Shown in pieces: positions 4,581 through 36,667 of a stretch of 64,000 nt of DNA. The position numbers and the translations under genes were made by a program. The first letter of the stretch is position 1. Every line of letters starts with the position of its first letter. The notes below the pieces were generated by a model that was given only the letters and a program-made list of their open reading frames with translations, searched no databases and was not told the origin of the DNA. Origin of the DNA: Warburgia ugandensis (taxonomy: Eukaryota; Streptophyta; Magnoliopsida; Canellales; Canellaceae); NCBI GenBank assembly GCA_035236585.1, contig CP141126.1:9437001-9501000 (forward strand), read 5' to 3'.

Positions 4581-4633
4581 ATAAGCAACGGTCCACATTC
4601 GGTGAAAAAAATGATAAGTCTCTAGATGCTACA

Positions 4634-9000: not shown

Positions 9001-9797
9001 TTGTTAAATTACAGTCAATTCGTTAATAAGAGGGAGTATATATGAAAGAAAAGCTGCAGATACTTTCACCCTTCTGTTTCGCTAGCTCTCGCCTGGATTT
9101 TAGAAGACGATGATTTACAGGCACAGGTAAAAGGGAATCCGGGGCCAAGCTTTCGGTAATCCGGACCATATGAATCCATATTAGGTATGCCACTCGGCCT
9201 TTCAGGGAAGACCACTGTTTTTCTGGGTTTACAAGAGGATAATCCCAAAACATTAGTAGCAACAAATCCTCTACTAATCAGGCGGTTACGATTAACAGAT
9301 GGATGAGATTTTCTAGTGGCATATTTTACTTAAAACCGGTCATCTACTACTTGATCAAATAACCTCCCCTATAAGACGATCCTGACCGCTAAAAACTATA
9401 TGTAGGATGAAAATTCAACAGCTCAGAAAGTTTTGGGAAGCTATGGTTTCCCCTAAATGGACCGGCCCCACATGTATCTGTAGTTCATTTTAAAGACGGG
9501 CGCCAATCTGACACCAGACCATCTTATTAAACAGAAAAATTACGAGAGACAGATGAAAGTTTAGTGATCTTACTTTTCGATGGGGCCGTAAATGGATGTG
9601 AGCTTGTGAGCAACGCCTAGGGCTTCAAGAGCTCTCCAAGCGTTGTCGGAGAGTGATAGGGCAGCGCCCGTGGTTCGAAGCTCATGCCACCTCTCCAGCA
9701 CCAAGGCCTTGACACCGACCCTCTTAAGGGCCAAGGCCGTAGCCAGGCCTGCGATCCCACCACCTATGATCACCACCTCCTCTTCGCGCATTTCCAT
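6068..9797 (-). CDS. FAD-dependent monooxygenase (MO/CTF2A-like, group-A flavin hydroxylase), copy 2
   Basis: Five minus-strand exons join into an uninterrupted 408-residue protein: 9574-9797, 8906-8971, 8600-8777, 8175-8403, 6068-6597 (1227 nt with stop). Phases match at every junction and all introns are GT/AG. The ATG at 9797 is the first in frame and puts the dinucleotide fold at residues 8-36 (VVIIGGGIAGLATAL). The DG motif (IGCDGVHSVV) starts near residue 157, and the GD motif with FAD pyrophosphate contact (AGDAMHPMTPDLGQGG) near 297. About 400 residues is the usual length of plant salicylate-hydroxylase-like monooxygenases. No transit peptide or membrane segment stands out. Members oxidise small aromatic or terpenoid-like substrates with FAD and NAD(P)H; the substrate here cannot be deduced. 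It is a tandem paralogue of copies 1 and 3. Confidence 0.88.
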
Positions 9798-9843
9798 CTC
9801 TCTCTCTGAAACCTTTCAATAAACAATTTACGGAGACCAATTG

Positions 9844-9903
9844 AATTTATAAGCAAAAGAAGAAAACCAACACCTAGAGGAAGCTGCGACTAAAGAGCAC
9901 GTG
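9844..9903 (-). promoter_or_regulatory. Copy 2 promoter: TATA box and G-box
   Basis: TATAAA-type box at 9844-9854 (minus strand), about 50 bp upstream of the ATG, with a perfect palindromic G-box CACGTG at 9898-9903. The same pair is at 24291-24302 and 24346-24351 in copy 3. G-boxes are bound by bZIP and bHLH factors. Role inferred from position and conservation between copies. Confidence 0.55.
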
Positions 9904-10015
9904 AATCTGTCATCGCTGAAGGGAAGTCTCGCAGCTTCCTTTCCTAGAACGTAGCCTTCTACGGACAACCGTCTCTTTCTATGAATTCTTGCTTACAAAG
10001 AAAAGAGAAGTACAC

Positions 10016-10016
<1 letters not shown>

Positions 10017-10081
<65 letters not shown>
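10017..10081. repeat. (TC)n microsatellite upstream of copy 2
   Basis: About 32 uninterrupted TC units roughly 220 bp upstream of the copy 2 ATG. The flank immediately right lacks about 130 bp that are present in blocks A and C. Confidence 0.95.
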
Positions 10082-10085
<4 letters not shown>

Positions 10086-11133
10086 TTTTGGATCCCTATG
10101 GGCAGCTGTATGTGACGCGAAGGCCGTTGAACTTGTAGACCACCATCACCCACATATTCTTGGTTCCACGACGAAACGGATCCCCGAAAGGTGAATCCTA
10201 TGACGGAAGGTCCCCCCCTTTAGTTGTTCCGACCGGCGACTCTGACTTCTCAACTTCGAATTCCTAGTAGTACAAGAAAACCTTGCAGATTGGATAAGCC
10301 TGGCATCTGGAAACTGTGGGAGGAACTTGGTCCAAACAAGGGTGAAGACATTGAATGACCAAATCTTTGTTTGCTAGAATCATCCAATCGCAATGCCTTT
10401 TGCAAGATCCGTGAGCCATACGTGGGCCACTAAAACGCGTCTGATTGGGAGCAGCACCATAGCCACTGCATTATTTAGTTTCTTTTTCCAATTTCCAATG
10501 GGAAGGAGCAGGTCAAAAGGTAGCAGTCGTGCATTCAACAATGGAATAATGATTTGACCCGGCTGATTCACGACCATAAGACATTTTTTGTGTGTGTACG
10601 GAACTAGTCCTTCCTTTTGATTTTTCTGTCCTAGTAGAATCGTGCGGGCCTTCCTTTTGACTCTCCTTTCTTCTTCTTCATCTTCTTCCTTTTTCTCTTG
10701 GTTTCTCATTGGAAATTAAAATTCACAGACCTACACGGGCCTTTGTCACTCAACTTCTCAATCACCCAACTTCCTCTCTGTTAAATGTTCAATTTTGGTC
10801 AAAATATCCCTAATTTAGTATTTAATTAGAGCATATAGGCCATCGATTTCAATATTTTACATAAAATATTTTATTTTAGCTCTAATTGGCCATTCAACCC
10901 TTGAATTATAAAATTTAACAGCCAGATAATCATCAGAGCTAATCAGAAGAGTAATGAATGGTTTAGATTATTCTAATTAGGTTATGTGTATTGTAGATCA
11001 ATCAATTCAAACTGGGATGATCCAGATCAAATTAACGAGATTAGATCAAAATGAAAAAGTTTCTTGGAAAGAGAGGACTTTGAAGACTCTTAGGACAAAA
11101 GGAATTTGAAGAATGGAGGAGTTTTGTATAGAA

Positions 11134-11312
11134 GGGGCCCTTGGCACAACGGTAAAAGTTGTCATCATATGACCTTGAGGTCACAGGTTCAAGGCGTGAA
11201 ATCAGCCTCTTGCAAAATGCAAGGAAAGACTGCCTACTATAGGCCCTTATGGTTTGCCCCTGTTTCGGACCCCACATAGGTGGGAGCATTGTGCACTGGG
11301 GCTGCCCTTTCC
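11134..11312 (+). mobile_element. Au-like SINE (block B)
   Basis: About 179 bp with a tRNA-like head: A-box region CTTGGCACAACGGTAAAAG and B-box region AGGTTCAAGGC. The body runs through CTCTTGCAAAATGCAAGG and GGACCCCACATAGGTGGGAG to GCACTGGGGCTGCCCTTT, the layout of plant Au SINEs. It is a pol III-derived retroposon, not a tRNA gene. The same insertion occurs at 27967-28145, so it predates the block duplication. Confidence 0.85.
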
Positions 11313-11452
11313 AGCACGCTTCTCTCTTTGTCTTTCTTATCTTGTTCTCCTCCCCAACTTCTCCCACCTATTCTTTCGCCATCGCATTGCCCAGCTCCTC
11401 TTCAGTCAGCAGTTTGTCGTTTTAGTCCCATTTTTTTCAGCCATCATCGACA

Positions 11453-11920
11453 AACTTTGCTGCACCAACAGAAGCTTTCAGACGCAGCATCGAATTCGGC
11501 CGCCGATGTCAACTGTGACGAGCACCGCCGTCGGCCACCAACATCAAAGAAAATCGGCCATCGCCCAAGACTTTGTGACATTTTTTGTTGACATTCAGCT
11601 TTGAAAATCCCTATAAAGAGGGATACGATTAAGAGCATTTGAAATCATCACACCAGACTTTGTGACATTTTTTGTTGACATTCAGCTTTGAAAATCCCTA
11701 TAAAGAGGGATACGATTAAGAGCATTTGAAATTATCACACCATTCCATATATTCTTTTCTTGTAAATACCCCTATAATTCTTTTGCTATATTGTTTAAGT
11801 TTATTGTGAAATTCCTCTCTCCATGGACATATGCATTTTTCACCAAACCACGTTAAACAACGTTCTTGTGCGTGTGTTTGTGTGGGTGCATTATCCTGGT
11901 CGGGGTTAAAAACCTCAACA
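11453..11920 (+). repeat. 5' LTR of copia element 1, with duplicated promoter
   Basis: Aligns with the 3' LTR at 15905-16257 and with both LTRs of element 2. It contains a perfect or near-perfect 87-bp tandem duplication (11568-11654 and 11655-11741), each unit carrying a CTATAAAGAGGG TATA box. Element 2 has one unit only. It ends ...AACCTCAACA just before the primer site. Confidence 0.85.
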
Positions 11921-11922
11921 AG

Positions 11923-11934
11923 TAGTATCAGAGC
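11923..11934 (+). other. Primer binding site of copia element 1
   Basis: TAGTATCAGAGC follows the 5' LTR after two bases. It differs by one base from TGGTATCAGAGC, the plant initiator-Met tRNA complement used by most copia elements. The element 2 counterpart (about 28669-28680) has one further change. Confidence 0.8.
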
Positions 11935-12169
11935 GAATTCTGCCACAAAATAGAGGCAGAAAACAAGAGTTGTAGAATGGTCATGATTGATGCGAGAAGG
12001 AAGAAGAATGGTGCAACTAGAGTGTTGCTACAGTTAAAAAAAATTCTGCTACAATGTAAAAACATCATCATTCTGCTATAGTGAAAGGCAACATCATTGT
12101 ACTATAGTAAAAGTGTATCATTGCTATCAGCTACAGTGATCGTTACATTATAAAACAGAAGATGAGTGG

Positions 12170-15100
12170 GCTTTTGAATATGAACAGGTATGTGGTATCA
12201 TTCTACAATGAGTAGAAGATAATATTTTGAATCATATTCAAAATGAAACACATACTAGAACTTTGTGGATCAAATTAGAAACCTTGTACGCATCGAGAAC
12301 TGAAAATATTAAGTAATTCCTACTTAATCAAGCAATGCACCTGAGATATAAGGAAGGGAGTTTCATTTTCGACCACTTGAATGAGTTGATCAGATGCTTT
12401 CAGCAACTTTCTGACGTTGGCGTCAAGTTTAACGATGATATCATGGGTTTATGGCTTTTTAATACTTTGCATGACTCATGGAATTTTTTTTGTGTTTCTC
12501 TAACCAATTCTACTCTAGGTAGTGCTGTGAAATGGGAATTCGCGAAAAGCGCAGTTTTAAATGAAAAAATGAGGCGACAAGCTCAAGTTGCCACCACATC
12601 ACTGTCTGAAATTTTGATCTCAAAAAACACGGAGAGAAGTAAGATCAAAGGTCAGCAGAAGAATAACAGGGCAAGTGTAAATCTAAGTCTAGATATAAGA
12701 ATCTGGAGTGTAATTATTGTGGCAAGAAGGGTCACATTAAAAAGCAGTGTTACAAGTGGAAAGCTGAGAACAAGACAGAGAATGCTAAGGAGGAGAAAAG
12801 AAATGATGACAGGAATGATCGTGTGACCACTACCACTTCAGGCCTTGTTGTGGTCTGTGATGAAAATGAGATCAACATAGCCTTCAGTGAGATTGGATGG
12901 GTCGTTGATAGCGGTGCTTCTTTCCACATTACCTCTAAGAGAGAGTTTTTCACCTCATACACTCCTCGTGACTTTGGAGTGTCGAAGATAGGTAACGACG
13001 GGTTGTCAAAGGTTGTTGGTATTGGATCTATCTGTTTGGACACCAATAACGAGACAAGGTTGATTCTTAAAGAAGTTTGACATGTACTAGATATCTGGTT
13101 GAAGTTAATATCAGCCAAAAAGTTTGCTGATGATGGGTACTGTAGTACCTTTTGCGATGGCTAGTGGAAGCTCTCTAAGGGAGCGCTTGTGGTTGCTAGA
13201 GGGAAGAAATCATCCAGCTTGTATGTGATGCAAGTTCAATTCTTATTAACTCTATGAATGTGGTTGATGTTGCTGGTTCTTCAGAGTTGTGGCACAAGAA
13301 GCTCAGATACATGAGTGAGAAGGACTAGGTTATCTAGTTAAGAAGAATTTTCTTTTAGGGCTCAAAGCTGCAAAGTTGAGCAAGTGTGCTCATTGTCTTG
13401 CCGGGAAGCAGCAATGGATTTCCTTCAAAAGCCATCCTTCTTCCAAGAAGTAAGTGTGCTTGAATTGGTACATTTAGATGTGTGTGGTACTATGAAGGTA
13501 CGAACACTTGGTGGTGCATTATATTTTGTGACCTTTATTAATTATTATTCTAGAAAACTCTCGGTCTATGCTTTGAAATATAGCGATCAGGTACTTGATA
13601 AGTTTAAAGAGTTTCAAGCTTTTGTTGAGCATCAAACAGGGAAGAAGTTAAAATGTATTCGCACAAACAATGGTAGCGAGTACTGTGGACCATTTGATGC
13701 TTATTGTAAGTAGCAAGGGATCAAACATCAAATGACTCCTCCGAAGACTCCTCAACTAAATGGTTTAACAGAAAGGATGAACAGGACATTGATACTTGCT
13801 TTCTGAAGCAAAGCTGCTCAGTTCCTTCTAGGGTGAGGCATTATACACAGCAACCTATGTTATTAACCTGTCTCCAATTGTTGCCTTGAATGCAAATATT
13901 TCTAAGATGCCACGGTATGGAAAAGATGTCACTTATGATCACTTGCGGATATTTGGGTGCAAGGCACTTGTACATATACCCAGAGATTTGAGGTCCAAGC
14001 TAGACGTCATGACCAAACAATGTATTTTCATCGGCTACGAGCAAGATGAGTTTGGTTACAAGCTATATGATCCTATTGCAAAGAAATTTGTTAGAATTCA
14101 TGACATGGTCTTTATGGAAGACCAAACCATTAACACATTGACAAAGCTGAAGGATCAGAAACTCGGAGTTTTGATATTTTAATTGATTTAGATCCAGTTC
14201 CTATTTCACATAAGCTAAGTGTAGATGGCACCAATGACCATGGTGGCATGCTAGCTGATATTCAAGATGATTAGGCCAAGGGTGAGCATGGAGCTGCTAA
14301 AGACATGGATGTTTCATCAGAGTCTAATGATGTTCAGCAGGAGGTTCCTACTTAAGAGCCAACAATTTCATTAAGATGGATTCGAGAGATCGTCAACCCT
14401 CCACTTAGTATTCACCAGATGAGTACGTGCTCCTCACTGATGGGGGAGAACCTGAGAGCTAAACAGAGGCAGTTGAAAGTGAAGATAATGCAGAGTGGAG
14501 TGCAACTATAAGGAAGAGATAAAATCCTTATAGGACAACCACACTTTTGAGTTGGTAAGATTGCCTAAGGGCAAACAAGCTTTGAAGAATCGATGGATTT
14601 ATAGGGTAAAGTATGAGGGTGACACTTCACAACCACGATACAAAACTAAACTTGTGATAAAAGGCTTTGGTCAAATAAAAGGTATTGATTTCGAGGAGAT
14701 ATTTTCTCATGTTGTCAAAATGTCTTCAATTCAAGTTGTATTGGGTTTGGCTACAAACCTTGATTTGGATGTTGAGCAGATGGATGTGAAGATAGTGTTC
14801 CTCCATGGTGACTTAGAGGAGGAGATGTATATGGAGCAGCCAGAAGGTTTTATTACTAAAGGCAAGGAGAAGTACGCATGCAAGCTGAAGAAGAGTCTGT
14901 ATGGCTTGAAACAGACTCCTTGATAGTGGTACAAAAAGTTCAAGCAGTTCATGGTCCAACAAGGCTTTCTACTTTAGATCATTGTGTGTTTGGCAGAGAT
15001 TCTCAGAGAATGATTTTGTCATCTTGCTACTCTATGTCGACAATATGCTTATTGCTAGACGCAGCTCTTCAAGGAACAGTTAATTAGAGGAGCTAAACAA

Positions 15101-15720
15101 AGTCTTTGCTATGAAAGACTTGGGACCTGCGAGAAAGATTCTCAAGATTTTTATCGTTCGTGACAGGAGGAATAAACAATTATGACTGTCTCAAGAGAAG
15201 TACATATAAAAGGTACTTCAACAATTTCATATGTATAAAGCTAAAGTGGTTAGTACACCTTTTGCTACTCACTTTAAGCTCAGTAAGAATCAATTTCCAA
15301 TGAGTGATGCTGAGAAAGGATACATGCAAGATGTTCTTTATGCTTCAGCTGTTGGCAGTCTTATGTATGTCATGGTATGCATCAGATCAGACATTGCATA
15401 TGCAGTGGGTACAATGAGCTGTTTTCTATCAAATCTAGAAAAAGAGTATTGGAATGCAGTGAATTGAATATTGAGTTATCTACGTGGTACTTCTAAGTTG
15501 AGTGTAGGATTTGACACTGGCAAGCCCATGCTTGAGGGCTACACTGATTCAGATATGGCAGGTCATATTAATAAAAGGAAATCTACTTCAGGCTACTTAA
15601 TTACTTTTGTAGGGGAAGCAGTGTTATGGCAGTTGATGTTACAAAAGTGTGTTGTCTTGTCTACGATAGAGGCTGAGAGGTCAATGCACATTGATGTTCA
15701 GTATCATTAGATACATTATA
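12170..15720 (+). pseudogene. Copia gag-pol remnant, element 1
   Basis: Broken reading frames keep the family order. Gag is at about 12170-12800 (LWIKLETLYAS, FDHLNELI), with a CCHC zinc knuckle in another frame near 12710-12760 (CNYCGKKGHIKKQC). Protease with an intact VDSGASFH is near 12900. The pre-integrase and integrase regions are at 13280-13830, RT at 14552-14920 (FEEIFSHVVKMSSI, EQMDVKIVFLHGDLEEEMYM, SLYGLK), and RNase H at 15480-15710. Successive codons TGA TAG at 14921-14926 replace the expected Arg-Gln after SLYGLKQTP. About 180 bp of RNase H present in element 2 is deleted near 15690. The gag N-terminus is replaced by a leader of repeated CTGCTACAGT-like words (about 12020-12140). 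Confidence 0.88.
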
Positions 15721-15904
15721 TTTTGAACACAAAGTCGTTAGAGCTTAAGAAAATTCATACTGACGATAATAGTTCGGATATGATAACAAAAGCATTACCT
15801 CAGAGCAAGTTTGAGATTTGCTGGGAATTGGCTGGGATGAGCTTCTGGTAGAAGTTCATACGTAAAGAAACCTCTTTTAGTTAATGGGCCTGGAGGGGAA
15901 GATT

Positions 15905-16257
15905 TGTTGGTCCAGTAACTTTGCTGCACTGAATTTGGCCGGGCACCGCCATCAACTGCCGACATCAAAGAAAATTGACCACCACCTAAGACTTTGTAAC
16001 ATTTTTTTGTTGACATTCAGCTATGAAAATCCCTATAGATAGGGATACAATTAAGAGAGTTTGAAATTATCACACCATTCCCTATCTTCTCTTATTGTAA
16101 ACACCCTATGTAATTCTTTCACTATATTGTTTCAGTTTATAGTGAAATTACTCTCTCTGTGGACGTAGGCATTTTTGGCAGAACCACGTTAAACGACGTT
16201 CTTATGCGTGTGTTTGCATGGGTGCATTATCCTGGTCGAGGCTAAAAACCCCCAACA
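15905..16257 (+). repeat. 3' LTR of copia element 1
   Basis: Starts TGTTGGTCCAG after the purine tract and ends CCCCCAACA. 353 bp, lacking the short AACAGAAGCTTTC stretch seen in the other LTRs. Carries a CTATAGATAGGG TATA-like box. Confidence 0.85.
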
Positions 16258-16314
16258 TAGTTTCCATGGACGATGCCTACCTTACATCCCCCTCAGTCAC
16301 TGCTCAGCAACCCC

Positions 16315-16315
<1 letters not shown>

Positions 16316-16374
<59 letters not shown>
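16316..16374. repeat. (TC)n microsatellite in LTR-X right half, block B
   Basis: About 29 TC units; the matching block C position (about 32116) has only a short CTCTCTCTCT run. The open frames of Ser-Leu repeats across it are artefacts. Confidence 0.9.
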
Positions 16375-16377
<3 letters not shown>

Positions 16378-17438
16378 CTGAAAGACACAGACCAAAGTTC
16401 AAATTCCATCATCCACTCTCTTCTTCTCTTGTCTTCTCTCTCCCACTTCCCATTGTCAACTTTCTTTTCTTCTCACCCTTGGGCTGGATTGTAGCTAGGA
16501 CTTGTCTTTACCACCCTCCTCTTACTCTCTCTATCTTTGTTCTTCATCTACCGCACAGCACCTCCCTTTCCAGGCTTCACCCCAGTTCATCTCCCACACC
16601 GGCCTCTTTCCCTAGCACACCTGACTCCCTCTTCTCCACTTCGGATTTGCAAACCACATATCACACCTACTCTTCTATCTCCACATCTGCCTAAGCCAGG
16701 CCAGACCGAACGACGCCATCTCACGACCCAACACTGCACCTTCTCCTCTCCCCGTTCTCCGATTTTGGTGAGATCAGAGGAGAAAACCTATTTTCTCCTT
16801 CCCAATTCCTTTCCTTTCCCCGTCTCCGACAACCTCTTCCTCAAGTGTCTCTCCCCCTAGTTTTCTTTAGGATTCCCAGTCACAGGAGAAAACCGTAAAC
16901 AAGTTTCCCTTTCTTTTCTTCTTCCCCTCCTCCTCTTCTTCCCTCTTCCTCCTCCTCCTCCTCCTTCTCCACTAGCTCTTCTTTCTTCTCCATCGATTTC
17001 CTTTCAGTTTTCTTTTCTAATTTTTTTTCCCTAAAATTTCTAATTTTGCCCTTGGCAGATCTGATTTAGTCTCATTTTTGTCCCAATTTTTCTTTCCTCC
17101 TATGTCCTAGATTGTAATGACCTCTGTGTCCCTGCTCTAGTCGAGCTTTACCTTATCCATATTCTGACTATCTAGGGACGGTGCAATCCAAGACTATTTT
17201 TTTAGTTTTATTTTCTGTCTTTTTCATAACTAGACATTATGTGATTTGCATCATTTCAATAAATCTAAATCTTTATTTTACTATTAGTTTATTTATGTTA
17301 TGTTGTTTATTTTTATTTTTTAACCAATTAAAATTTTTATTTAAACTCTCTTTTTAAACAGAGTTTCTGTGAGATCGACCTATACTTACATTAACTATAA
17401 TATAATAATCCATGTACTTGCGGTTAAATACATCAACA

Positions 17439-18060
17439 CTCTTCTCTCTTTCTCTGCTCTCTGTTCTCTTCCTCATCATTGCCCAACACTGGCAGCACCG
17501 CCTACTGCACTCTCTACTCCTCACCTCACTCCCATCTCTTCCCAGTTATCTACATCGTTGGCTTTTTCCAATGAAAACCTAATTTTCAGGCATTCCCCTA
17601 TGCTCTTTGTACTCTCTCTACTCAACTTGTCTCCCCACTGGCGAGTCCTCTCTCACATGCAAATTCTATCATCTCTCCCTCACTTTTGCTTTAGCTCCTG
17701 CGCTCTTCTCATCTGCTCCACTGCACCGCTCCAACCCTCTAATTGGCACCGCTTAATCAAGAGAATCCTGATTTTCTCCATTTTCCCTCTATTCCTCCTC
17801 CTCTTCTTACTTTCTTCACCTTCTTCTCTTCTTCCCTCCTACTTCACCGAAATCTCCCTCCTCCAGCCGAAAGTTTTCTATTTTGATTAAAAATCTAATT
17901 TTTTCCCCTTAATTCTGTTTTTACCCTATTGCACTTAATTCTTAATTCCAACCCCCTAATTTAATTTCTTGTGTATCCTTATTTCTATTCTAGTTTCATC
18001 TTGCCTTCTTTTTTTTTTTCTGCATAATCCAAGCCAGTGATTAAGGCTTAACTTAATCAA
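17439..18060. repeat. Pyrimidine-rich LTR-type repeat, truncated at 18060
   Basis: Continues the block B repeat past the end of LTR-X and matches 33170-33790 in block C. The match stops abruptly after CTTAACTTAATCAAC, where MED26-derived sequence begins. No coding capacity is recognised. Confidence 0.6.
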
Positions 18061-18245
18061 CGGCAGAAAGAGACCCCATAAATTCATGGTAGAAAGAGAC
18101 CCCATAAATTCTCTCCTATTTTTTTTCTCTCTCCTCTCGCTGTGAACAAGCAAACATCGTTTCAGGTGCACGAACGGAAGGCCTTTCTTTCGGTCTTAGC
18201 CGCAAGGCGTAAAAGAATATTTATTAAATATAAAAATAATTATTT

Positions 18246-18293
<48 letters not shown>

Positions 18294-19036
18294 CATTTTC
18301 TCTTCCAATTACTAGGAAATCAGTACGTCAATGGTGTTTATCTGTTCATGATGTCTGGTCTGGAGGAAAATGCAAAGAAACGGAGAGATTTTTGGGGCAA
18401 TCTGAAAAGGCGACTTAGCCTTTTCAACTAGATTTGCAGAAGGTTCGGCTTTCTGTGTCCAATTGACGGATTTGGAAGGTTTTCCATTTTCGATTTTCAG
18501 TCTGGTTGTGTAGCTTTCCGATCGACGAGGAAGCAAAATATTTGGAGCTTGTTGGTCGATTTCAGTAATCTGACTGCTTTTCGTTGCCGATCAGGAGATC
18601 TCGGCATTTTTCTAGGTAAATGAGTTATTCTTTCTGTGCGTAAGGCGAATCCGTACCTTTTTCCGGTACTGAAATTATCTGGAGATTGTCCGGATCCATT
18701 TCTGCAGGCTTGGTAATCGGTGAGTTGCAAGTCAAATGATGATAAGACCGCAAATTTCGAGTGTCCGCTCCAAATCCGCGGAGTAAATGACGAGAGGAAC
18801 TAGCAGGATATTTTAGATCTGGGGACAGATTTGCGCATCTCTTCGTAAGACTCGAAAGTAGGAAACTTTTGTGCTTCGAATTTGTCCGAGGTTGAGAAAA
18901 GAGTTCGGTTATAGAACTAAGTTCTAGATCCGACGAAAGACATTCGTGGATTCGCAGATCGGTATTTTTCTGAGATGGATTTCGATGATCTCAGATCTGT
19001 TTTGTGGAATTCAGGCGTCGATGTCTGGACTCTGAT
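18061..19036 (+). pseudogene. Captured MED26 promoter, leader and first-exon fragment
   Basis: This segment is a close copy of 39,300-40,296: flank, GA microsatellite, leader and the first 21 codons of the MED26 gene. The ATG is at 18975. The frame reads [20 protein letters not shown], one Arg-to-Trp change from the parent, then leaves MED26 at about 19037 and stops at 19052 after 25 residues. The left junction carries a 26-bp tandem duplication of MED26 sequence (AGAAAGAGACCCCATAAATT twice, 18065-18110). The right junction shares ATC with the start of block C. The TFIIS-N domain is absent, so no Mediator function is possible, but the upstream transcription signals may survive. Confidence 0.85.
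18250..18287. repeat. (GA)n microsatellite in the MED26-derived leader
   Basis: About 19 GA units. The parental locus has a shorter, interrupted purine run at 39497-39530. Confidence 0.9.
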
Positions 19037-20456
19037 CATCCGATTGGCATAACTTTTGTTTGACTATTAGATAGACAATGTCGGATTAATCGGAATTGAT
19101 GGGACCCATTACACGAAAGTGGGGGATTCCTTAATCTTGAATATTAAAATTTGCAGTCGTTGATTGAGGTAGATCAGAATTGGTGTCTCCAAATTAAACA
19201 AGACTCGTGCAAGTATATGGGCTCCACCAATCTCTCCTTCACCATCAAACTCCCCGAGGTAACAAACTTGAAGACATAAGAAACAGTGGCAGTTTTGCAG
19301 GATGTATGCAAAAAATGTGGGTATTTATTAAGCAGCCACTAAAGGCATGTTTTACGATATTTCGGTCACGGCAGGCAGCTGTTGTGGTGAGGTGAAGCTT
19401 GTGTAAGGCAAGTGGGTAAGCAGGTTGGCGCGCGACCTGTAAAAATGCAACTGTTTTCTGCCAATGACTGACGCTCTTCTCCAAAACTTCTCTTACCAAA
19501 AGTAGGCTCTCTTGCTCTCTATCTCGATCGTTATCTTTTCTCCTAAGCAAGGAATCCGTTAAATCCACATGGAATTTGGATGTGCTGATGAATCATGCCT
19601 GTTTTTGTGGGGGCAACGAAGAAGAGAGAAACTCATTTAAGAAATCCATTTGAATTCTAACACCAGATATTCCTATCTGAATCCAGTTATATTTCTTACA
19701 AGCCTCAAACGGACAGAGAGAAGCTTGAACCATCTATATCTGTATGGCTTGTATGCGTACACATATCAATTAATGATGTGATATATGTATGTCATCACAT
19801 TCCATTTTGATGTCAAGCTTCATGCGTTCTCTTTCCGTTTCTTTCCCATCTTTATCTGTCAATCAATAGACGATCAGAAGTTCACACAGTTACTTGACTA
19901 TGTTGGCCTCGTTCAGGAAGTTGGACAGCCCCAACTTGTACAGCTCTAGATGTCGTCATGTTTAAACTTAATTCAGGTAAATGACACAAGCATTCCCTTG
20001 CTAAGAACGAGTTGGGCCATACCATCGCTACAACCAATTTTGTTGATCAAGGCGTTCTTGTTTTAGGCACATAATAGGCAGTGCACGAAAAGAGTCATAA
20101 GAACACGTGATATCGTTTAGTTGTTATCGATGGTAGATACTACTTTAACTTGCATTTTAAATTTCAGTCCAACTAAAGCGTAGGATCAACCGGTGGATAG
20201 AGGTGCAGGAGCTCAAACAGCTATCTCAAAGACTTCTAATTGCATTGATCCTGGTTATTTGAGACTATTCATTCCCAGCTGTTTTCACGTCGATTCCATT
20301 TCTTTAGTTTTCACTTTCTTAACGAATAACAACCAAGCAACATTTGAATTTGAATACAAAATAAAATCCTCTAAACGACCCACAAATTATCGGAACAAAC
20401 TGCGAAGACACATCACTTATTCCCGACCATCTATTCCAAAACCTACCTAACTTGCC
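19037..20456. other. 3' flank of monooxygenase copy 3 (duplicate of 4634-6067)
   Basis: Near-identical to the copy 2 flank. No gene is seen. It starts at the chimeric junction with the MED26 fragment, replacing the fossil exons that precede block B. Confidence 0.6.
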
Positions 20457-21883
20457 CTATGACGAAACTGTAGGCAACTTCCCACAGTCAAATTGTATGG
20501 CACCGAAAATCTTGTTGAACAGGTACCTATAGAAGACTAGCCTTATGAGCTTAACAAATCGGGATCCACCTTGCTGGACCCAACCAGAAAGATATGATCC
20601 AACGACCAACATCATAACACGCCACCTCCTCTCCTTCACATAACTTTCTAAAACTTCTGCTATTCTTTCAGATCTGGTCCTTCCATCTCCAAGTAGTGAA
20701 TTACCGATATGTCGGCCAAGGACAACAGCGTCCTCCAATGCCGAACAGCCACCCTGGCCCAAGTCAGGTGTCATCGGGTGCATGGCATCGCCTGCCATTG
20801 TTATATTACCCTTGCACAACGATCCGAATATTAGGTTCCAAGGGGGCCTAAACATCAATGGGCCCAATGTCACTGTGGAGAGATCTGCCTGCTGTACCAC
20901 ATCTAAGTACCTTGTTGGGAAGTCCTTGGCCAAGTTCTGCATGACAAGCTCCTGTATCAGCTTTGGGTCTGGAGGTGTCTCTCCTCCTGCAAGTGGTTGA
21001 AAAAGGAAATGATATGGCGTGAGACGCTCTCCCCAATTATGATATCAGGTGCAATTGTGGAACAGCATCAAGTAACTAACTTTTCTGAATGTCAATTATA
21101 AGGGTAATAGCTGGAGCACCGAGATGAACAAGTCTGATCATACAATGGTAAGTGAGCTCGATAATCATGTTGACGCTTGACAGCACCTCATGCGCAGTCT
21201 TTAGCATTCCTCTTACGAGAAGAGAGAGTTTCCAGACTGACTCAAGATTCAGCCTAACTAAACTCCTCTTTTGGATGATCTGATCCGTTCATCTTGTCTA
21301 GCCTCCCTTAGATTGGCTAGACACCAAATTCAAGATTGTTGGATGATTTAGCTATGCTCTCTAGAGTTTTGAAATCACTGCCGTTGAATTTATCAACTGA
21401 GAGGAAAAATATAAATAAATAAAAAGACTTTCAGTTGAACATTAGTTTTTGCAAACAGTATAAATGGGTGGCCAAATAAGTTGATTGGGACAGATGATCG
21501 AAAGATGGGGCATGAGTTTTGGTATTGTTTGGTCTATACTAGTAGGTCTTCTTTCTACTCCTTTGTGACCATATCACTTGGCACACAAATGTAGGACGAC
21601 CAGAGCCATACAAATTGCAAGACTCATCAGGTATACGCTTTAGCAAAAATATTGTCCGTTTCTACAAATAGAATGACCAGAATCAATGGCAAAGATGAGG
21701 TTGCTGCACAGCGGCTTAATTTTGAAAGATTTCTTCATCTTCTTACTTCTAGCTTCCCATTAGCCATTGAGAATTGGTAGCAAAATTAAATTAAGCCCCA
21801 CTATAAAAGCTTATGAAAGAGATGATGTGAAAAGATGCTTTCCATTGCGCCCTTATTTAGACAATTGTATTTCATGAGTATAC

Positions 21884-21967
<84 letters not shown>

Positions 21968-24245
21968 CAAATTGCTAAAACATTTTCAAATTTTCAGTTT
22001 TCCTCTAAATATTGTCAAAGTAAAAGTTCCTAAGACTTTTCGTCCCAAATTGCTTCTTGAGTAGAATTGGATGATCTTATCCTTAAAGTTTGGTTTCCAT
22101 GAGAGAGGGAGAGTAAATATGAAAATATTTAATTTGCATGAGGCTAGGGTTAAATAAAATTATCTTTTTTATTGTTATAGTGCCTTTTCAACGAAGTTTG
22201 AATAAGTGTTTGCAAATCTATAAAGAGTCAAAATTTGGCATTTTAAACACACCGTTTCCACTACTCTCTGTCTTTATTACATTCTTTATTTTCCATTCCA
22301 TTATTGGTCAAATCATTGTCTAACTATGTTAGAGTTCAAGGTGAGTCTACTGAAGATATTTGCGACAACCCAAATAAAGGCTTGCAGCATTTCTGAAGCG
22401 GTTTGCCAGAGATGTAACGAGCAAAAGCTCGATTGAGAGAGTAGGATAAATAACACTTAAGGAAATTATATTTAATACACGTTTAAGCCACACTATATTT
22501 CATCTTTTTGGCAACAATTTCATTCTCTCTCCCTAATTCTTTAACAGATTGCCTATCACTATTATGGCCTAATTCCCTCGTTCATCTAAGACCAAATTAA
22601 GGACAACCTCACGTTTGAAAATGATGGGAAGAAGAATCACCTGCAGGGTTAGGTTTGTAGACTATGAACCAATAAACCTCTTTGCTGGTGAGAGGAGAGA
22701 AACCACCCCTTAAGTTTTCGAATACGAACTGCTCGGCGTCATGCTTAAAGCCATGGCCTTGAGGGAATGTTGCCAAACCTCTAACAGCCCATCGACCCGA
22801 ATGAACAGGGGCAGCGAGCCCCAGCCACTGAGCCACTACTGAGTGCAGCCCGTCACACCCAATTAAAATCTGCAGTGCACAACAAGACAATTACTAAGCT
22901 CAGAATTACGAAGTGTGCTTCAGATCATTCGGTAACTTGACTTTGAGCTGATTATTTATTCATTGATGGTCCAAATCAAATACCTCATCTAAAAGATTAG
23001 TTATTAGAGTTATAATTATATATTGAGTGGCAGTATAGACATATCCTATTCCTTAGGACATTTAATTAAAAGCGTAATAAAATCACTTACTTTGGCTTTG
23101 ATGACTGTCTGATCCTCCATGTGGATGATTGCTTTAGGCGAACCTTGTGGTGTTTCGGTTTTTATTGAGACAACCTTTGAAGAATAGCGTATTGTTTCAA
23201 GTGGAAGCTCCTCGGCCAAGGCTTCCAATAGGGCTTTCCTGTGCAGTGCCCTTACACCCAGTATGCTGCTGCATTTAATCATAAGCATCTATTTCAACAT
23301 TAGAAGTTCCAGACTCACTTAGGAAATTAAACTTTCCACCTTGCAATGTCTTTAAACTACGTAGTTGGTGACACAATAGATGTTTGATTTCATTACCTGT
23401 CGGTTGGCGCTCTTGAGTAACCGATCTGTGTAGCCCCAGTAGCAACATTAGTAATAGACACCCTAATTAGAAATGGCACTCGTTAGTTCAGCTGTTAAAT
23501 TACAGTCAATTCGTTAATAAGAGGGAGTATATATCACCCTTCTGTTTCGCTTCCCACCCGGATTTTAGAAGACGACGATTTACATGTACAGGAAAAAGGG
23601 AATCCAGGGCCAGGCTTTCGGTAAGCCGGACCATATGAATCCATCTTAGCTAGACCATTCAGACTTTCAGAGAAGACAACTCTTTTTCTGGGTTTAAAAG
23701 AGGATAATTCGAAAACATTAGTAGCAACAAATCCTGGACTAATCAGGCGGTTACGATTAGCAGATGGATGAAATTTTCTAGGGCATGTTTTAGTTAAAAC
23801 AGGTCATCTGCTACTTAATCAAATATCGCCCCCTATAAGACGATCCTGACCGCTAATAAATATATTTAGGAAGGAAAATCCACAGCTTAAAAAGTTTTGG
23901 GAAGCAATGGTTTCCCCGACATGTTCCTGTAGCTCATTTTAAAGACAGGCGCCAATCTCACAGCAGAACACCTAATTATACAGAAAATCATTAGAGGCAA
24001 ACGAAAGTTTAGTGATCTTACTTTTCGATCGGGCCGTAAACGGAAGTGAGCTTGTGAGCAACGCCTAGGGCTTCAAGAGCTCTCCAAGCGTTGTCGGAGA
24101 GTCCTAGGGCAGCGCCCGTGGTTCGAAGCTCATGCCACCTCTCCAGCACCAAGGCCTTGACACCGACCCTCTTAAGGGCCAAGGCCGTAGCCAGGCCTGC
24201 GATCCCACCACCTATGATCACCACCTCCTCTTCGCGCATTTCCAT
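20457..24245 (-). CDS. FAD-dependent monooxygenase (MO/CTF2A-like), copy 3
   Basis: Same gene model as copy 2: exons 24022-24245, 23397-23462, 23091-23268, 22641-22869, 20457-20986, total 1227 nt, 408 residues, no internal stop, all GT/AG. The GGGIAGLATALALKRVG fold is at residues 12-28, the DG motif IGCDGLHSVV near 157 and GDAMHPMTPDLGQGG near 298. The fourth intron holds a GA microsatellite of about 80 bp that is barely present in copy 2. The protein differs from copy 2 at scattered positions, mainly in exons 2-5. A captured MED26 promoter lies beyond its 3' end in the opposite orientation and could produce antisense RNA. Enzyme substrate unknown; family assignment firm. Confidence 0.88.
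21885..21965. repeat. (GA)n microsatellite expanded in intron 4 of copy 3
   Basis: About 40 GA units. The same position in copy 2 (about 7488-7500) has only four or five, so the expansion followed duplication. Confidence 0.95.
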
Positions 24246-24290
24246 CTCTCTCTCTGAAACCTTTCAATAAACAATTTACGGAGACCAATT

Positions 24291-24351
24291 GAATTTATAA
24301 GCAAAAGAAGAAAACCAACACCTAGAGGAAGCTGCGACTAAAGAGCACGTG
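24291..24351 (-). promoter_or_regulatory. Copy 3 promoter: TATA box and G-box
   Basis: TATAAA-type box at 24291-24302 and perfect CACGTG at 24346-24351, in the same spacing as copy 2. Confidence 0.55.
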
Positions 24352-24463
24352 AATCTGTCATCGCTGAAGGGCAGTCTCGCAGCTTCCTTTCCTAGAACGT
24401 AGCCTTCTACGGACAACCGTCTCTTTCTATGAATTCTTGCTTACAAAGAAAAGAGAAGTACAC

Positions 24464-24464
<1 letters not shown>

Positions 24465-24535
<71 letters not shown>
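24465..24535. repeat. (TC)n microsatellite upstream of copy 3
   Basis: About 35 TC units at the position matching 10017-10081 in block B. The unique segment of about 130 bp following it here is missing in block B. Confidence 0.95.
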
Positions 24536-24537
<2 letters not shown>

Positions 24538-25723
24538 TATATGACACTGTTAAATTCTTCCTGCTTGAAGTAATTTTCAAGAGATGAACCACATCGATAG
24601 AGTGTTGACGCGTAAAAATCTAATCAGAGAGTGCTGTGGGGATCAAGCCGTGACCCTCAACTTTTGGATCCCTATGGACAGCTGTATGTGACGCGAAGGC
24701 CGTTGAACTTGTAGACCACCATCACCCACATATTCTTGGTTCCATGACGAAACGGATCCCCGAAAGGTGAATCCTATTACGGAAGGTCCCCACCTTTAGT
24801 TGTTCCGACCGGCGACTCTGACTTCTCAACTTCGAATTCCTAATAGTACAAGAAAACCTTGCAGATTGGATAAGCCTGGCATCTGGAAACTGTAGGAGGA
24901 ACTTGGTCCAAACAAGGGTGAAGACATTGAATGACCAAATCTTTGCTTGCTAGAATCATCCAATCGCAATGCCTTTTGCAAGATCCGTGAGCCACACGTG
25001 GGCCACTAAAACGCGTCTGATTGGGAGCAGCACCGTAGCCACTGCATTATTTAGTTTCTTTTTCCAATTTCCAATGGGAAGGAGCAGGTCAAAAGGTAGC
25101 AGTCGTGCATTCAACAATAGAATAATGATTTGACCCGGCTGATTGACGACCATAAGGCATTTTGTGTGTGTACGGAATTAGTCTTTCCTTTTGATTTTTC
25201 TATCCTGGTAGAATCGTGCGGGCCTTCCTTTTGACTTTCCTTGCTTCTTCTTCTTCTTCTTCTTCTTCCTTATTCTCTCCATTTCTCGTTGAAAATCACA
25301 ATTCACAGACCCACACGAGCCCTTGTCACTCGACTTCTCAATCACCCAACTTCCTCTCTGTTCAATGTTCACTTTTGATCAAAATATTCCTAATTGTTAA
25401 GTGTTCAATTTTGGTCAAAATATCACTAATTTAGTATTTGATTAGAGCATCTAGACCATTAATTTTAAGATTTTAAATCAAATATTTCATTTTAGCTTTA
25501 ATTGGCCATCCAACCGTTGAATTGTAAAATTTAGTGGTTAAATGACTATTAAAGCTAATGGACGGTTTAGATTTCGCTAATTGAGTCCTGTGCATTGCAG
25601 ATCAGTCAACTCAGGCATAGACGCTCCAGATTGAATCATGAAAATCAGATGGAATTTGAAGAGTCATAGTACAAAACAAGATTGAAGACTTGCAAAGTTC
25701 TAGTAAGACTAGAATTCCAGTGG

Positions 25724-25729
<6 letters not shown>

Positions 25730-25797
<68 letters not shown>

Positions 25798-25882
25798 ACA
25801 TCTCTCCCTATCTCTCTTTTGAAAGACCCTTCTTTCTTCTCCAAAAAGAATGTTTTTTTTCCCTTTTAGGAAGGTGCAGGCT

Positions 25883-25934
<52 letters not shown>
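25730..25934. repeat. Two (TC)n microsatellites in the solo LTR
   Basis: TC runs at 25730-25793 and about 25888-25934, separated by about 95 bp of pyrimidine-rich DNA. Confidence 0.9.
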
Positions 25935-25936
<2 letters not shown>

Positions 25937-26708
25937 ATCTCAACTATCTCTATCTCATGCTTCATCTTCACTGCTTGGATTGACTCCTTTGTTTCACACT
26001 TTACCTCCTCTCTTTTCATCTCTTGGTTTCCAACAAGAACCCGAGTTCCAGTCTGCGTTTCCTGCTTCATCGCCATCACACAGCTAGCCCTCTTCCATCA
26101 TCACACCGCACCAATTCCCCTGCTTCTCTCTTCTTTACGGATTCCCTCACTCCCTTTTGCCTTCACGTTTTCCCTCTCTACTTCCTTATCCTCTCTCACT
26201 CCTGCATCAACCCCCAAACCCATCACCTGTCTTCCCAGGCTACACCAACTACCTAGCCTCCTCTACAACACCACCAACCCAACTCCTCACCGTGCTCCCT
26301 TCTCCCTTAAGCTCCAACTCTTTCTTCCCGCCCCTGCTCCATCTTCCCAAACCACATCATCTCGTCCTCTTCTCTTGGCCGGCCATTGGTGCGTGACACA
26401 CCAAGAAGGCCTGGCCTTTTCTCCCTCTTCTTCTTCCCTCTTATCCCTTCTTCTCAATCCCCCTTCCTCTCCGGCTCCACCTTCTTTCGGCTGGGCATAT
26501 ACCCATTCCGGTTGGCTCAGGAATTTCTCCCATCATCTTCCCTGTCTCCCATCTCTGGAGGGTTTCTCGCTTCCGAACGGCCCAGTGGAGAAAATCCGAA
26601 CTGGGTTTTCTCCCAACCCAGCTTCTCCTCCATTTGCATCCATTTGCATCACTGGACGCCCACAGGTGCGTGACACACCACAGGCCTGGTGTCATTTCAA
26701 CTGCCCAG

Positions 26709-26710
<2 letters not shown>

Positions 26711-26791
<81 letters not shown>
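26711..26791. repeat. (TC)n microsatellite, longest in the solo LTR
   Basis: About 40 TC units. Confidence 0.95.
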
Positions 26792-26794
<3 letters not shown>

Positions 26795-27104
26795 CGCCAG
26801 TCGCACGGCCAGGGAGCGGGTTTTCTCCCCATCTTCTCGTCTCTCCATCCTTCTTCTTCCTCTTCTCCTTCTTCCCCATCTTCTCATCCGATTCCTCTTT
26901 CTTCACCGGCTTCCACAATCACCAGACGCCCCAGGAGAGAAAACCCAACTCGGGTTTTCTCCCCACCATTTTCTTCTTCCTCCTTCCTCTATTCTTCTTC
27001 CTCTTCCTTTCTTTCCCCCTTCTCCGGTTCCCACCATGTTTTCCTGGTTTTTTCGTGAAAAACCAAAACCCCTAAAGAAATTCCAAGTCTGCCCCTGTTA
27101 AAAC

Positions 27105-27240
27105 CCAGAAATACCAACTGTGTCCCCTGTCAGATTTCAGGAAATTCCATCTGTGTCCCTAAAAGAATTCCATCTGTGTCCCCTGTCAGATTTCAGGAAA
27201 TTCCATCTGTGTCCCGAAAAGAATTCCATCTGTGTCCCTT
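27105..27240. repeat. Imperfect short tandem repeat (GTGTCCC-type) in the solo LTR
   Basis: The words TTCCATCTGTGTCCC and CCTGTCAGATTTCAGGAAA recur at intervals of 26-60 bp between 27105 and 27240, suggesting local slippage duplications. Confidence 0.6.
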
Positions 27241-27966
27241 GGCAGATTTCAAAAATACCAATTGGGTCCCCGGTTTAATTACAACTGTGTCCCTGTGCTA
27301 TTCTGGTTTTAACTTATCTTCATTCTGACTATTCAGGGACAGTGCAATCCAAGACAGACTATTCAAGGACAGACTAATCAGAGATAGTGCAATCCAAGGA
27401 CAAGCTTATCCAGGACGCATTTTTGTTTTATTTTCTATTTTCCTTGGAATAAATATTTGGGAACATTGGAACAATTGAATACATCTGGATTTTAGTTTAT
27501 TTCTAGTATAATCTTTGTTTTTATTCTTTTAGTTGAATTTTATTTAAAACTCCATAATTTTAAATCAAGTCCTCGTGGGATCGACCCGTATTTGCATAGC
27601 TATACTACAATAGCCCGTGCACTTGCGGTTAAAAAATCAACACTAATTTAGTATTCAATTAGAGCATATAGGCCATCGATATCAATATTTTACATAAAAT
27701 ATTTTATTTTAGCTCTAATTGCCTATTCAACCCTTGAATTACAAAATTTAACGGTCAGATAATCATCAGAGCTAATCAGAAGAGTAATGAATGGTTTAGA
27801 TTATTGTAATTAGGTTATGTGTATTGTAGATCAATCAATTCGAGTTAGGATGATCCAAATCAAATTAACGAGATTAGATCAAGATGAAAAAGTTTCTTGG
27901 AAAGAGAGGACTTTGAAGACTCTTAGGACAAAAGGAATTTGAAGAATGGATGAGTTTTGCATAGAA

Positions 27967-28145
27967 GGGGCCCTTGGCGCAATGGTAAAAGTTGTCATCA
28001 TGTGACCTTGAGGTCACAGGTTCAAGGCGTGGAATCAGCCTCTTGCAAAATGCAAGGTAAGACTGCCTACTATAGGCCCTTGTGGTCTGCCCCTGTTTTG
28101 GACCCCACATAGGTGGGAGCATTATGCACCGGGGCTGCCCTTTCC
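27967..28145 (+). mobile_element. Au-like SINE (block C copy)
   Basis: Same element and insertion point as 11134-11312. A-box CTTGGCGCAATGGTAAAAG, B-box region AGGTTCAAGGC, end GCACCGGGGCTGCCCTTT. Confidence 0.85.
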
Positions 28146-28284
28146 AACACCCTTCTCTCTTTGTCTTTCTTTTCTTGTTCTCCTCCCCAGCTTCTCCCAC
28201 CTATTCTTTCACCATCGCATTGCCCAGCTCCTCTTCAGTCAGCAGTTTGTCGTTTCAATTCCATTTTTTTCAGCCACCACCGAC

Positions 28285-28666
28285 AAACTTTGCTGCACCA
28301 ACAGAAGCTTTCAAACGCAGCACCGAATTTGGCCGCCGATATCAATTGTGGCGAGCACTGCCGTCGGCCACCAACGTCAAAGAAAATCGGCCACCGCCCA
28401 AGAATTTGTGACATTTTTTGTTGACATTAAGCTTTGAAAATCCCTATAAAGAGGGCTATGATTAAGAGCATTTGAAATCATCACACCATTCCATGTCTTC
28501 TCTTCTTGTAAATACTCCTGTAATTCTTTTACTATATTGTTTCAGTTTATTGTGAAATTCCTCTCTCCATGGACATAGGCATTTTTTGCCCAACCACGTT
28601 AAACGACGTTCTTGTGCGTGTGTTTGTGTGGGTGCATTATCCTGGTCGGGGTTAAAAACCCCAACA
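28285..28666 (+). repeat. 5' LTR of copia element 2
   Basis: About 382 bp with a single CTATAAAGAGGG box and without the 87-bp duplication of element 1. The primer site AGTATCATAGC follows. Confidence 0.85.
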
Positions 28667-28909
28667 AGTAGTATCATAGCGAGTTCTGCCACAAAATAGA
28701 GGCAGAAAACAAGAGTTGCAAAATGGTCACGATCGATGCGAGAAGGAAGAAGAATGGTGCAACTAAAGTGTTGCTACAGTTAAAAAACACTTCTGCTACA
28801 ATGTAAAAACATCATCATTCTGCTACAGTGAAAGGCAACATCATTGTACTATAGTAAAAGTGTATCATTGCTATCAGTTACAATGATCGTTACATTAAAA
28901 ACAGAAAAT

Positions 28910-31450
28910 GAGTGGGCTTTTGAATATGAACAGGTATGTGGTATCATTCTACAATGAGTAGAAGATAATATTTTGAATCATATTCAAAATGAAACACATA
29001 CTAGAACTTTGTGGATCAAATTAGAAACCTTGTACGCATCGAGAACTGAAAATAATAAGTTATTCCTACTTAATCAAGCAATGCACCTAAGATATAAGGA
29101 AGGGAGTTCTGTTTTCGATCACTTGAATGAGTTGATTGGATGCTTTCAACAACTTTCTAACGTTGGCATCAAGTTTAACGATGATATCATGGGTTTATGG
29201 CTTTTTAATACTTTGCATGACTTATGGAATTTTTTTTGTGTTTCTCTAGCCAATTCTACTCTAGGTGGTGCTGTGAAATGGGAATCTGCAAGAAGCGCAA
29301 TTTTAAATGAAGAAATGAGGTGATGAGCTCAAGTTGCCACCACATCACTGTCTGAAATTTTAATCTCAAAAAACAAGGAGAGAAGTAAGATCAAAGGTCG
29401 GCAGAAGAATAACAGGGCAAGAGTAAATATAAGTCTAGATATAAGAATTTGGAGTGTAATTATTGTGGCAAGAAGGGTCACATTAAAAAGCAGTGTTACA
29501 AGTGGAAAGCTGAGAACAAGACAGAGAATGCCAAGTAGAAGAGAAGAAATGATGACGTAAATGATAGTATGGCCACCACCACTTTAGGCCTTGTTGTGAT
29601 TTATGATGAAAATGAGATCAACATAGCTTCCAGTGAGATTGGATGGGTCGTTTACAGTGGTGCTTCTTTTCACGTTACCTCTAAGAGGGAGTTTTTCACC
29701 TCATACACTCCTCGTGACTTTGTAGTGTTGAAGATGGGTAACGACGGGCTGTCAAATGTTGTTGGTATTGGATTTGTCTATTTGTACACCAATAACAGGA
29801 CGAGGTTGATTCTTAAGGAAGTTTGACATTGACCAAATATCTGGTTGAACTTAATATCAGCCAGAAAGCTTGATGATGATGGGTACTATAATACCTTTTG
29901 CAATGGTCAATGGAAGCTCTCTAAGGGAACACTTGTGATTGCTAGAGGGAAGAAATCATCTAGCTTGTATGTGATACACGCTTTAATTCTTATTAACTCT
30001 ATGAATGCAGTTGATGTTGCTGGTTCTTCAGAGTTGTGGCACAGGCAGCTCATTCACATAAGTGAGAAAGGACTAGTTTGTTTAGTCAAGAAGAGTCTGC
30101 TTTCAAGGCTCAATGCTGCAAGGTTGAGCAAGTGTGCTCATTGTCTTGCCAAGAAGCGGCAACAAATTTCCTTCAAAAGGCATCCTTCTTCCAGGAAGCC
30201 AAGCGTGCTTGAATTGCTACATTAGGATGTGTGTGGTACTATGAATGTACGAACACTTGGTAGTGCATTATATTTTGTCACCTTTATTGATGATTATTCC
30301 AAAAAACTCTAGGTCTATGCTTTGAAATATAAGGATTAGGTACTTGACAAATTTAAAGAGTTTCAAGCTTCTGTTGAGCGTCAAACAGGAAAGAAGTTGA
30401 AATATATACGCACAAGCTTCTTCTAGGTTTTGTTGCTAAAGGCAAGGAGAAGTACATCTGCAAGCTGGAGAAGAGTCTATATGGCTTGAAATAGGCACCC
30501 ATGACAATGGTACAAAAAGTTCAAGCAATTCCTGGCCCAACAGGGTTATAGAATGACTATTTCAGATTATTGTGTGTTTATGTAGAGATTCTCAGAGAAT
30601 GATTTTGGGATTTTGCTACTCTATGTTGATGATATGCTTATTATTTGATGCAGCTCTTCAAGGATCAGTCAATTAAAGAAGGAGCTAAACAAAGTCTTTG
30701 TTATGAAAGACTTGGGTCCTGTGAGATAGATTTTTGGGATTTCTATCGTTCGTGACAGGAGGAATAAGTGGTTATGGTTGTCTCAGGAGAAGTACATAGA
30801 AAAGGTACTTCAGCGATTTCACATGGATAGAGCTAAAGTGGTTAGTACACCTTTTGCTACTCACTTTAAGCTTAGTAAGAATCAAGTTCCAGTGAGTGAT
30901 GCTAAAAAGGAATGCATGCAAGATGTTCTTTATGCTTCAGCTATTGGCAGTCTTATGTATGCCATGGTATGCACCAGAGCAGACATTACATATGCAGTTG
31001 GTACAGTGAGCTATTTTCTATTAAATCCAGGAAAAGAGCATTTGAATGCAGTGAAGTGGATATTGAGATATCTACATGGTACTTCCAAGTTGAGTCTAGA
31101 ATTTGGCACTAGCAAGCTCGAGTTTGAGAGCTACACTGATTCGGATATGGCTAGTGATATTGATGAGGAAGTCTACTTCAGGCTATTTGATTAGTTTTGC
31201 AGGGAAAGCAGTGTCATGGCAGTCAATATTATAGAAATGTGTTGCCTTGCCTATGATGGAGGCTGAGTTTATTGTTGTGACAAAGACTTGCAAAAAGTTA
31301 CTGTGGATGAAGAAATTCATGAACGAACTTGGCTTTACGCAGAAGAGATATGCCTTATTTTGTGATAGTTAGAGTGCTATAAACCTCAGAAAGAATTCTA
31401 CTTTTCATGGGAGGTCAAAGCACATTGAACAACATTGATGTTCAGTAACA
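28910..31450 (+). pseudogene. Copia gag-pol remnant, element 2
   Basis: Gag is at 28910-29323. The zinc knuckle (CNYCGKKGHIKKQC) is at about 29450-29500. The protease is at 29569-29826 with VYSGASFH, the catalytic Asp replaced by Tyr. GAG-pre-integrase is at 29845-30225 (ELWHRQLIHIS, CAHCLAKK). After a short integrase stub and the large deletion, RT resumes near 30420. The polymerase motif LLYVDDMLII is intact around 30620, and the RT tail and RNase H run from 30778 (SQEKYIEKVLQRF, TDSDMASD) in one open stretch to 31194. RNase H continues to about 31430 in broken frames, including the part missing from element 1. Confidence 0.88.
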
Positions 31451-31648
31451 TTGGATACATGATATTTTGGACAAGAAGTCGCTAAAGCTTGAGAAAATTC
31501 ATACTAATGATAATAGTTCAGATATGATGACAAAAGCATTACTACGTAGCAAGTTCGAGATTTTCAGGGAATTGACTGTGATGGGCTTCTGCTAGAAGTT
31601 CATAAATGAAGAAACCTCTTTCAATTAATGAGCATAGAAGGGGAGATT

Positions 31649-34333: not shown

Positions 34334-34539
34334 CACACTCTCCTTTTTATTTTTCACCGTTTGGTGCCTTCCCAGTACATAGAGCACAGAGTAACTTACA
34401 CACTCAAACATGCTCCTGGGAGCAAGGGTCAGACGGAGTAGCTGGCCCATTTTTTTGTAATTAAAAAAAAAAGAAAAGAAATCCTAACTGTTTATCAAAT
34501 TCACCCTCATCCAGATGATGTGACTACCAAAATTCGAAC

Positions 34540-36595: not shown

Positions 36596-36667
<72 letters not shown>

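Follow-up and report, generated by a model that had tools for sequence, protein, structure and literature searches.

A fragment of the MED26 start between two monooxygenase repeats in Warburgia ugandensis: a probable tandem-duplication joint with loss of a spacer

Introduction

How does the start of one gene come to stand, cut short, between two copies of another, and what might it do there? The question is raised by a 64,000-nucleotide stretch of the Warburgia ugandensis genome (C1:9437001-9501000, contig CP141126.1; hereafter the window), which contains no N and in which a piece of MED26 lies between two monooxygenase-bearing repeats. An initial annotation, made from the letters of the window, had taken this piece for a promoter and first-exon fragment captured by template-switching repair, and had suggested that it could place the enzyme gene to its right under antisense control. 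Here we set out the identity of the fragment, the structure that surrounds it, the event that probably produced it and the limited role it may have today.

Identity and extent of the fragment

Comparison of the window with itself by BLASTN matches positions 18080-19037 to 39320-40299, the start of MED26, at 93.4% over 981 columns (plus/plus), with an E-value reported as 0 that excludes chance. Both the MED26 identity of the fragment and its rightward orientation, the same as that of MED26, are thereby borne out. The fragment as a whole occupies 18062..19037 on the plus strand and comprises upstream sequence, the 5'-UTR region and the first 21 codons, its outermost positions (18062-18079) being part of an extra copy of a 26-bp repeat. 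About 0.9 kb upstream of the ATG is retained, including an AT-rich stretch; sequence upstream of 39320 is missing. Splice-like signals, with a GT at 18616 and an AG ending at 18707, are kept in the fragment and in MED26 (equivalents 39873 and 39964), and may delimit a 5'-UTR intron (18616..18707, plus strand). A processed retrocopy is rejected on account of the upstream sequence that was kept, this possible intron included. The coding piece (18975-19037) is cut after codon 21, as had been noted, and the frame then enters the adjoining block C, where it reads four further codons before a stop at 19050-19052, so that the truncated frame (18975..19052, plus strand) yields 25 residues.

Across the 1.12-Gb genome (14 contigs) the fragment matches itself, MED26, the MED26 homeolog on C3 (76%) and a 119-bp stretch on C6. 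MED26 itself, start and body, lies on the plus strand at 39320..42360: its first exons match the Pfam domain Med26 at 2.2e-16, and 39204-42360 matches C3 at 83.9%. The body of the gene (40300-42650) is single on C1, with a homeolog on C3 (88%) and weak matches on C2, C9, C11 and C3.

Two direct-repeat units and their monooxygenase genes

The fragment fills exactly the gap between the ends of two direct repeats of 13-15 kb, both read on the plus strand, a placement that the initial annotation had not mentioned. Unit 1 (4633..18061) carries monooxygenase copy 2 on the minus strand, a Copia element and a second repeat that is cut off at 18061; unit 2 (19035..33795) carries monooxygenase copy 3, also on the minus strand, followed by the Copia element and the second repeat. 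In the window self-comparison the units are colinear, have the same orientation and match in seven pieces: 4633-7499 with 19035-21895 (95.2%), 7490-10082 with 21956-24530 (91.7%), 10080-11027 with 24656-25631 (86.6%), 10801-11655 with 27633-28488 (93.9%), 11655-13666 with 28401-30415 (91.4%), 14845-15677 with 30425-31267 (84.5%) and 15688-18061 with 31432-33795 (80.3%). Among the 40 of 4162 candidates that were scored, the combination at 15688-18061 has a full-length match in unit 2 alone, which speaks for common descent of the two units. Sequence to the left of 4633 is not repeated to the left of 19035, and its best relative elsewhere (83%) lies at C1:9403079-9403904. The self-comparison also confirms that the fragment is absent 3' of monooxygenase copy 2.

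Copy 3 is placed at 20457..24263 (minus strand) by the outer limits of its first- and last-exon open frames, which are open-frame limits and not an intron-resolved gene model; the frames are open in copy 3, and the Pfam assignment to FAD_binding_3 was made on their counterparts in copy 2. There, three of the four exon-sized frames match FAD_binding_3 at E <=0.01, one of the three under the curated cut-off, and the fourth has no Pfam match. Genome-wide, the FAD_binding_3 matches that belong to copy 3 are at C1:9457604 and C1:9461039. The last-exon frames of copies 2 and 3 differ at 10 of 588 bases and 7 of 195 residues. The two genes belong to a larger array: between 9.40 and 9.47 Mb of C1, matches to FAD_binding_3 (five in C-terminal exons, four in first exons) mark no fewer than five monooxygenase copies on the minus strand, a lower bound because 21 of 88 candidates were scored.

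Comparison of copies 1 and 2 (window positions 95-2439 and 7715-10045) revealed three consecutive 250-base intervals with no differences, the other six differing by 2.4-13.2%. The identical intervals are likely to represent a recent gene-conversion tract, and on their evidence exchange between copies does happen at this locus. Set beside copies 2 and 3, the first exon of copy 1 (1965-2290, minus strand) seems to have a frameshift close to its beginning, which would make copy 1 a possible pseudogene. Remnant monooxygenase exons (3699-4621, minus strand) lie in the interval from copy 1 to copy 2; their closest relative is the same older array copy at C1:9403079-9403904 (83%).

Origin of the fragment

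The fragment is very probably the right-hand end of a tandem duplication, the spacer that preceded it having then been lost from unit 1. It is worth noting that this claim is restricted to the duplication joint; a single simple event is not claimed. In such a history, a stretch running from the position of 4633 through the monooxygenase gene, the transposable elements and the spacer into the start of MED26 would have been copied head to tail, giving unit, spacer and MED26 start, followed by unit, spacer and whole MED26. The window holds this predicted order minus the first spacer. At the joint, MED26 codon 21 would have become continuous with the left end of this stretch through a common ATC; loss of the 5.5-kb spacer from the left copy would then have brought the MED26 start against the repeat cut at 18061, leaving a 26-bp local duplication. 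We infer the order of duplication and deletion, as well as the repair pathway, from this final arrangement. The observations that distinguish such a joint are structural: colinear direct repeats flank the fragment; its source is the right-hand neighbour of the right-hand unit, in the same orientation, intact MED26 lying on the plus strand 5.5 kb to the right of unit 2; and the rest of MED26 is present in single copy at the locus.

At the right-hand joint, three bases (ATC, 19035..19037) are common to MED26 codon 21 and block C, and this microhomology, already reported in the initial annotation, is present in the sequences of both parents. The local duplication described at the left-hand joint is also there, as a direct repeat with a 26-bp period (18055..18106, plus strand; copies 18055-18080 and 18081-18106). 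The window has three occurrences of the 21-bp core of this repeat (18065, 18091 and 39331), the last being the only one at MED26, and the aligned stretch of C3 has one. Template switching during repair is one possible cause of the 3-bp joint; end joining fits equally well.

The same features could be read differently, with the MED26 start copied by template switching in repair and inserted separately into a tandem array that already existed. The common ATC and the local duplication at the left-hand joint would be at home in such a capture. It demands, however, a coincidence, in which the source happens to be the next gene to the right, the copy happens to take the same orientation and both of its ends happen to fall on the ends of the units. 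Duplication with spacer loss is favoured by the map of the blocks, by the presence of one MED26 body on C1 and of its homeolog on C3, and by the agreement in divergence described below; we regard separate capture as unlikely. Capture by a Pack-MULE or similar element was rejected, with no pair of inverted repeats of at least 14 nt in 17950-19150.

Tandem repeats are a frequent site of assembly errors, and a misassembly or a pair of unmerged haplotypes might in principle have produced the arrangement. Against this, the units differ by 4-14%, the joint cuts MED26 within an exon at a 3-bp microhomology, the window is free of N and unit 1 lacks the spacer. An artefact of this kind is very unlikely.

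The spacer and the homeologous locus on C3

The spacer (33796..39331, plus strand) lies between unit 2 and MED26 and is absent between unit 1 and the fragment in the self-comparison map; six pieces of it, within 35101-38620, match C3 in order. The homeologous 50 kb of C3 contains one MED26 and then, going away from MED26, the spacer matches in the same order (38544-38620, 37064-37396, 36787-37007, 35673-35730, 35346-35416 and 35101-35328; 58-360 columns, 68-83%), interrupted by other sequence that includes two matches to 3040-3592. Past these, C3 matches the 5' flank of the monooxygenase (24999-25130) and, farther on, has a first-exon monooxygenase remnant that spans more than one frame, on the expected strand at about 84.9108-84.9111 Mb (59% over 49 residues and 56% over 32). 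The other three monooxygenase exon frames have no clear match in this 50 kb of C3 (best E 0.20); as a control, the 30 kb to the left of the window matched all four. In the one genome compared, C3 has MED26, spacer segments, the 5' flank of the monooxygenase and the first-exon remnant once each and in order, with no intact monooxygenase, an arrangement that may reflect the state before the duplication.

With its pieces matching C3 in order next to MED26, the spacer has long adjoined that gene, and that it is missing next to the fragment is therefore best read as a loss. Unit 1 stops at 18061 inside a dispersed repeat whose counterpart in unit 2 extends to about 34328, and in all 10 of the flanked dispersed copies compared, drawn from 48 matches reported, the match crosses the point equivalent to 18061 and goes on to about 34326-34328. 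The converse, insertion of the spacer into unit 2, is rejected on the ordered C3 matches and on the continuation of the cut repeat to about 34328.

A diverged relative of spacer positions 35317-36991 is found between two older monooxygenase copies at C1:9427227-9428416, some 9.8-8.6 kb to the left of the window, and suggests that earlier duplications in the monooxygenase array may also have extended into the spacer. No MED26 piece was detected at E 1e-3 in the 30 kb left of the window.

Divergence and relative age

The fragment differs from MED26 in 46 of 957 columns and the adjoining noncoding part of block C from its counterpart in 58 of 1418 (Fisher p=0.41), so the fragment and the unit it adjoins are equally diverged. 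This equality speaks for the duplication joint and against a separate capture. In a three-way alignment with C3 as outgroup (891 columns), 16 changes are assigned to the fragment, another 16 to MED26 and four to neither with certainty; fragment and MED26 are both 18.2% from C3. Judged by the ratio of these divergences, the split from C3 would be several times older than the duplication. The fragment showed no excess of methylation-type decay, changes of C-to-T type at CG or CHG making up 2 of 16 against 3 of 16 for MED26.

Divergence along the units is a different matter. Under one event it should be uniform; instead it rises from 5.3% to 13.1% at a change point inside the Copia element (29532), as strong a step appearing in 0 of 300 shuffles, and reaches 14.3% (327 of 2281 columns) in the last part of the units, which differs from the fragment with p about 1e-16. 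With transversions alone, 20 of 300 shuffles reach the step within the Copia body and 0 of 300 over the longer stretch 27633-33795. The Copia element that holds the change point is common to both units (28401-31267 with 11655-15677).

A tree of 20 LTRs places the split of the 5'-LTR pair at a shallow level and that of the 3'-LTR pair (94% support) at a deep one, with one 3' LTR on a long branch. Over the right part of the Copia element (14845-15915) the units are 84.5-85% alike, and eight dispersed copies resemble unit 1 at 83.5-90.4% and unit 2 at 82.9-88.1%; in this part, to which the comparison is confined since the retrieved pieces end before the earlier Copia body, the units resemble dispersed copies at least as closely as they resemble one another. 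The LTR tree, the change point and the dispersed copies together rule out one duplication with uniform rates as the source of all the divergence. The more-diverged right part must be older than the fragment joint, or have been exchanged with other copies, or be evolving faster.

In favour of a separate capture is the divergence of the right part of the units, which exceeds that of the fragment and equals that between dispersed family members: the locus had therefore been through more than a single event, and the array may be older than the fragment. Duplication with spacer loss accommodates this if an older layer, or further exchange, raised the divergence of 29.5-33.8 kb. The data would agree with an early doubling of the Copia element and, after the younger duplication, recombination inside it.

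Possible promoter function

The fragment points at the 3' end of minus-strand copy 3, in which the last-exon frame reaches to 20457, a distance of 1,420 bp. A working promoter within it would make RNA antisense to copy 3 and could control copy 3 in a way that copy 2 is not controlled, a proposal that is compatible with an origin by duplication. In its favour are the orientation and the 1,420-bp interval, the retained 0.9 kb and splice-like signals, and the even split of polarised changes with no excess of C-to-T type change. Equal rates, however, also fit neutral drift on both sides, 32 polarised changes carry little power, sequence upstream of 39320 is missing and the frame ends after 25 residues. 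That the fragment does not change faster than the MED26 start is thus compatible alike with promoter use and with its absence, and it is the geometry of the locus that makes antisense control of copy 3 possible. We give such control very little credence. Incidental plus-strand transcription from the fragment has a better claim, perhaps one in three as a matter of judgement. Most likely, to judge from the sequence, the fragment has at present no role or is incidentally transcribed, a scar that possibly still carries a working promoter.

In a broader form, a housekeeping promoter carried by duplication to the 3' side of one duplicate would work and produce RNA antisense to copy 3, and the two recent duplicates would differ in control from birth because of where the duplication ended; this is very unlikely. 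Were the promoter alive, the two recent duplicates would form a natural pair for comparing an enzyme gene that faces an opposing promoter with one that does not. Were it dead, the fragment would be an ordinary scar, useful for reconstructing the growth of the monooxygenase array.

Relation to known systems

By structure, the locus belongs to a known kind of genome scar, the tandem-duplication joint with a partial gene, and it is a clear example of a duplication end moving a promoter beside another gene. A study in PLoS Genet (2017; PMC5460883) describes tandem duplications through which the 5' part of a gene comes to adjoin sequence not transcribed before; for Drosophila yakuba it reports 43 putative cases in which noncoding sequence was recruited, 15 of them without an inherited start codon, and activated transcription in 30 cases. 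As in the cases described there, a duplication end lies inside a gene and joins its 5' part to foreign sequence. The present locus departs from that description in three respects: it is known from the sequence of one plant assembly alone, the spacer is missing from one unit, and downstream of the fragment an enzyme gene on the opposite strand has its 3' end. Partial gene duplication in general (review PMC3449122) likewise leaves a truncated paralogue near its parent, but here a whole duplicated enzyme-gene unit separates the fragment from MED26. Pack-MULE capture, named in PMC8277862, also yields gene fragments away from their parents; the present fragment lacks the inverted repeats, and its ends coincide with those of the duplication units. 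A literature search combining MED26, monooxygenase, tandem duplication and antisense transcript gave no paper with MED26 among its matches, and one on truncated tandem duplicates with antisense gave nothing on the subject, judged by title.

Elsewhere in the window, a local direct duplication of about 480 bp (88%) is present at 45762-46761.
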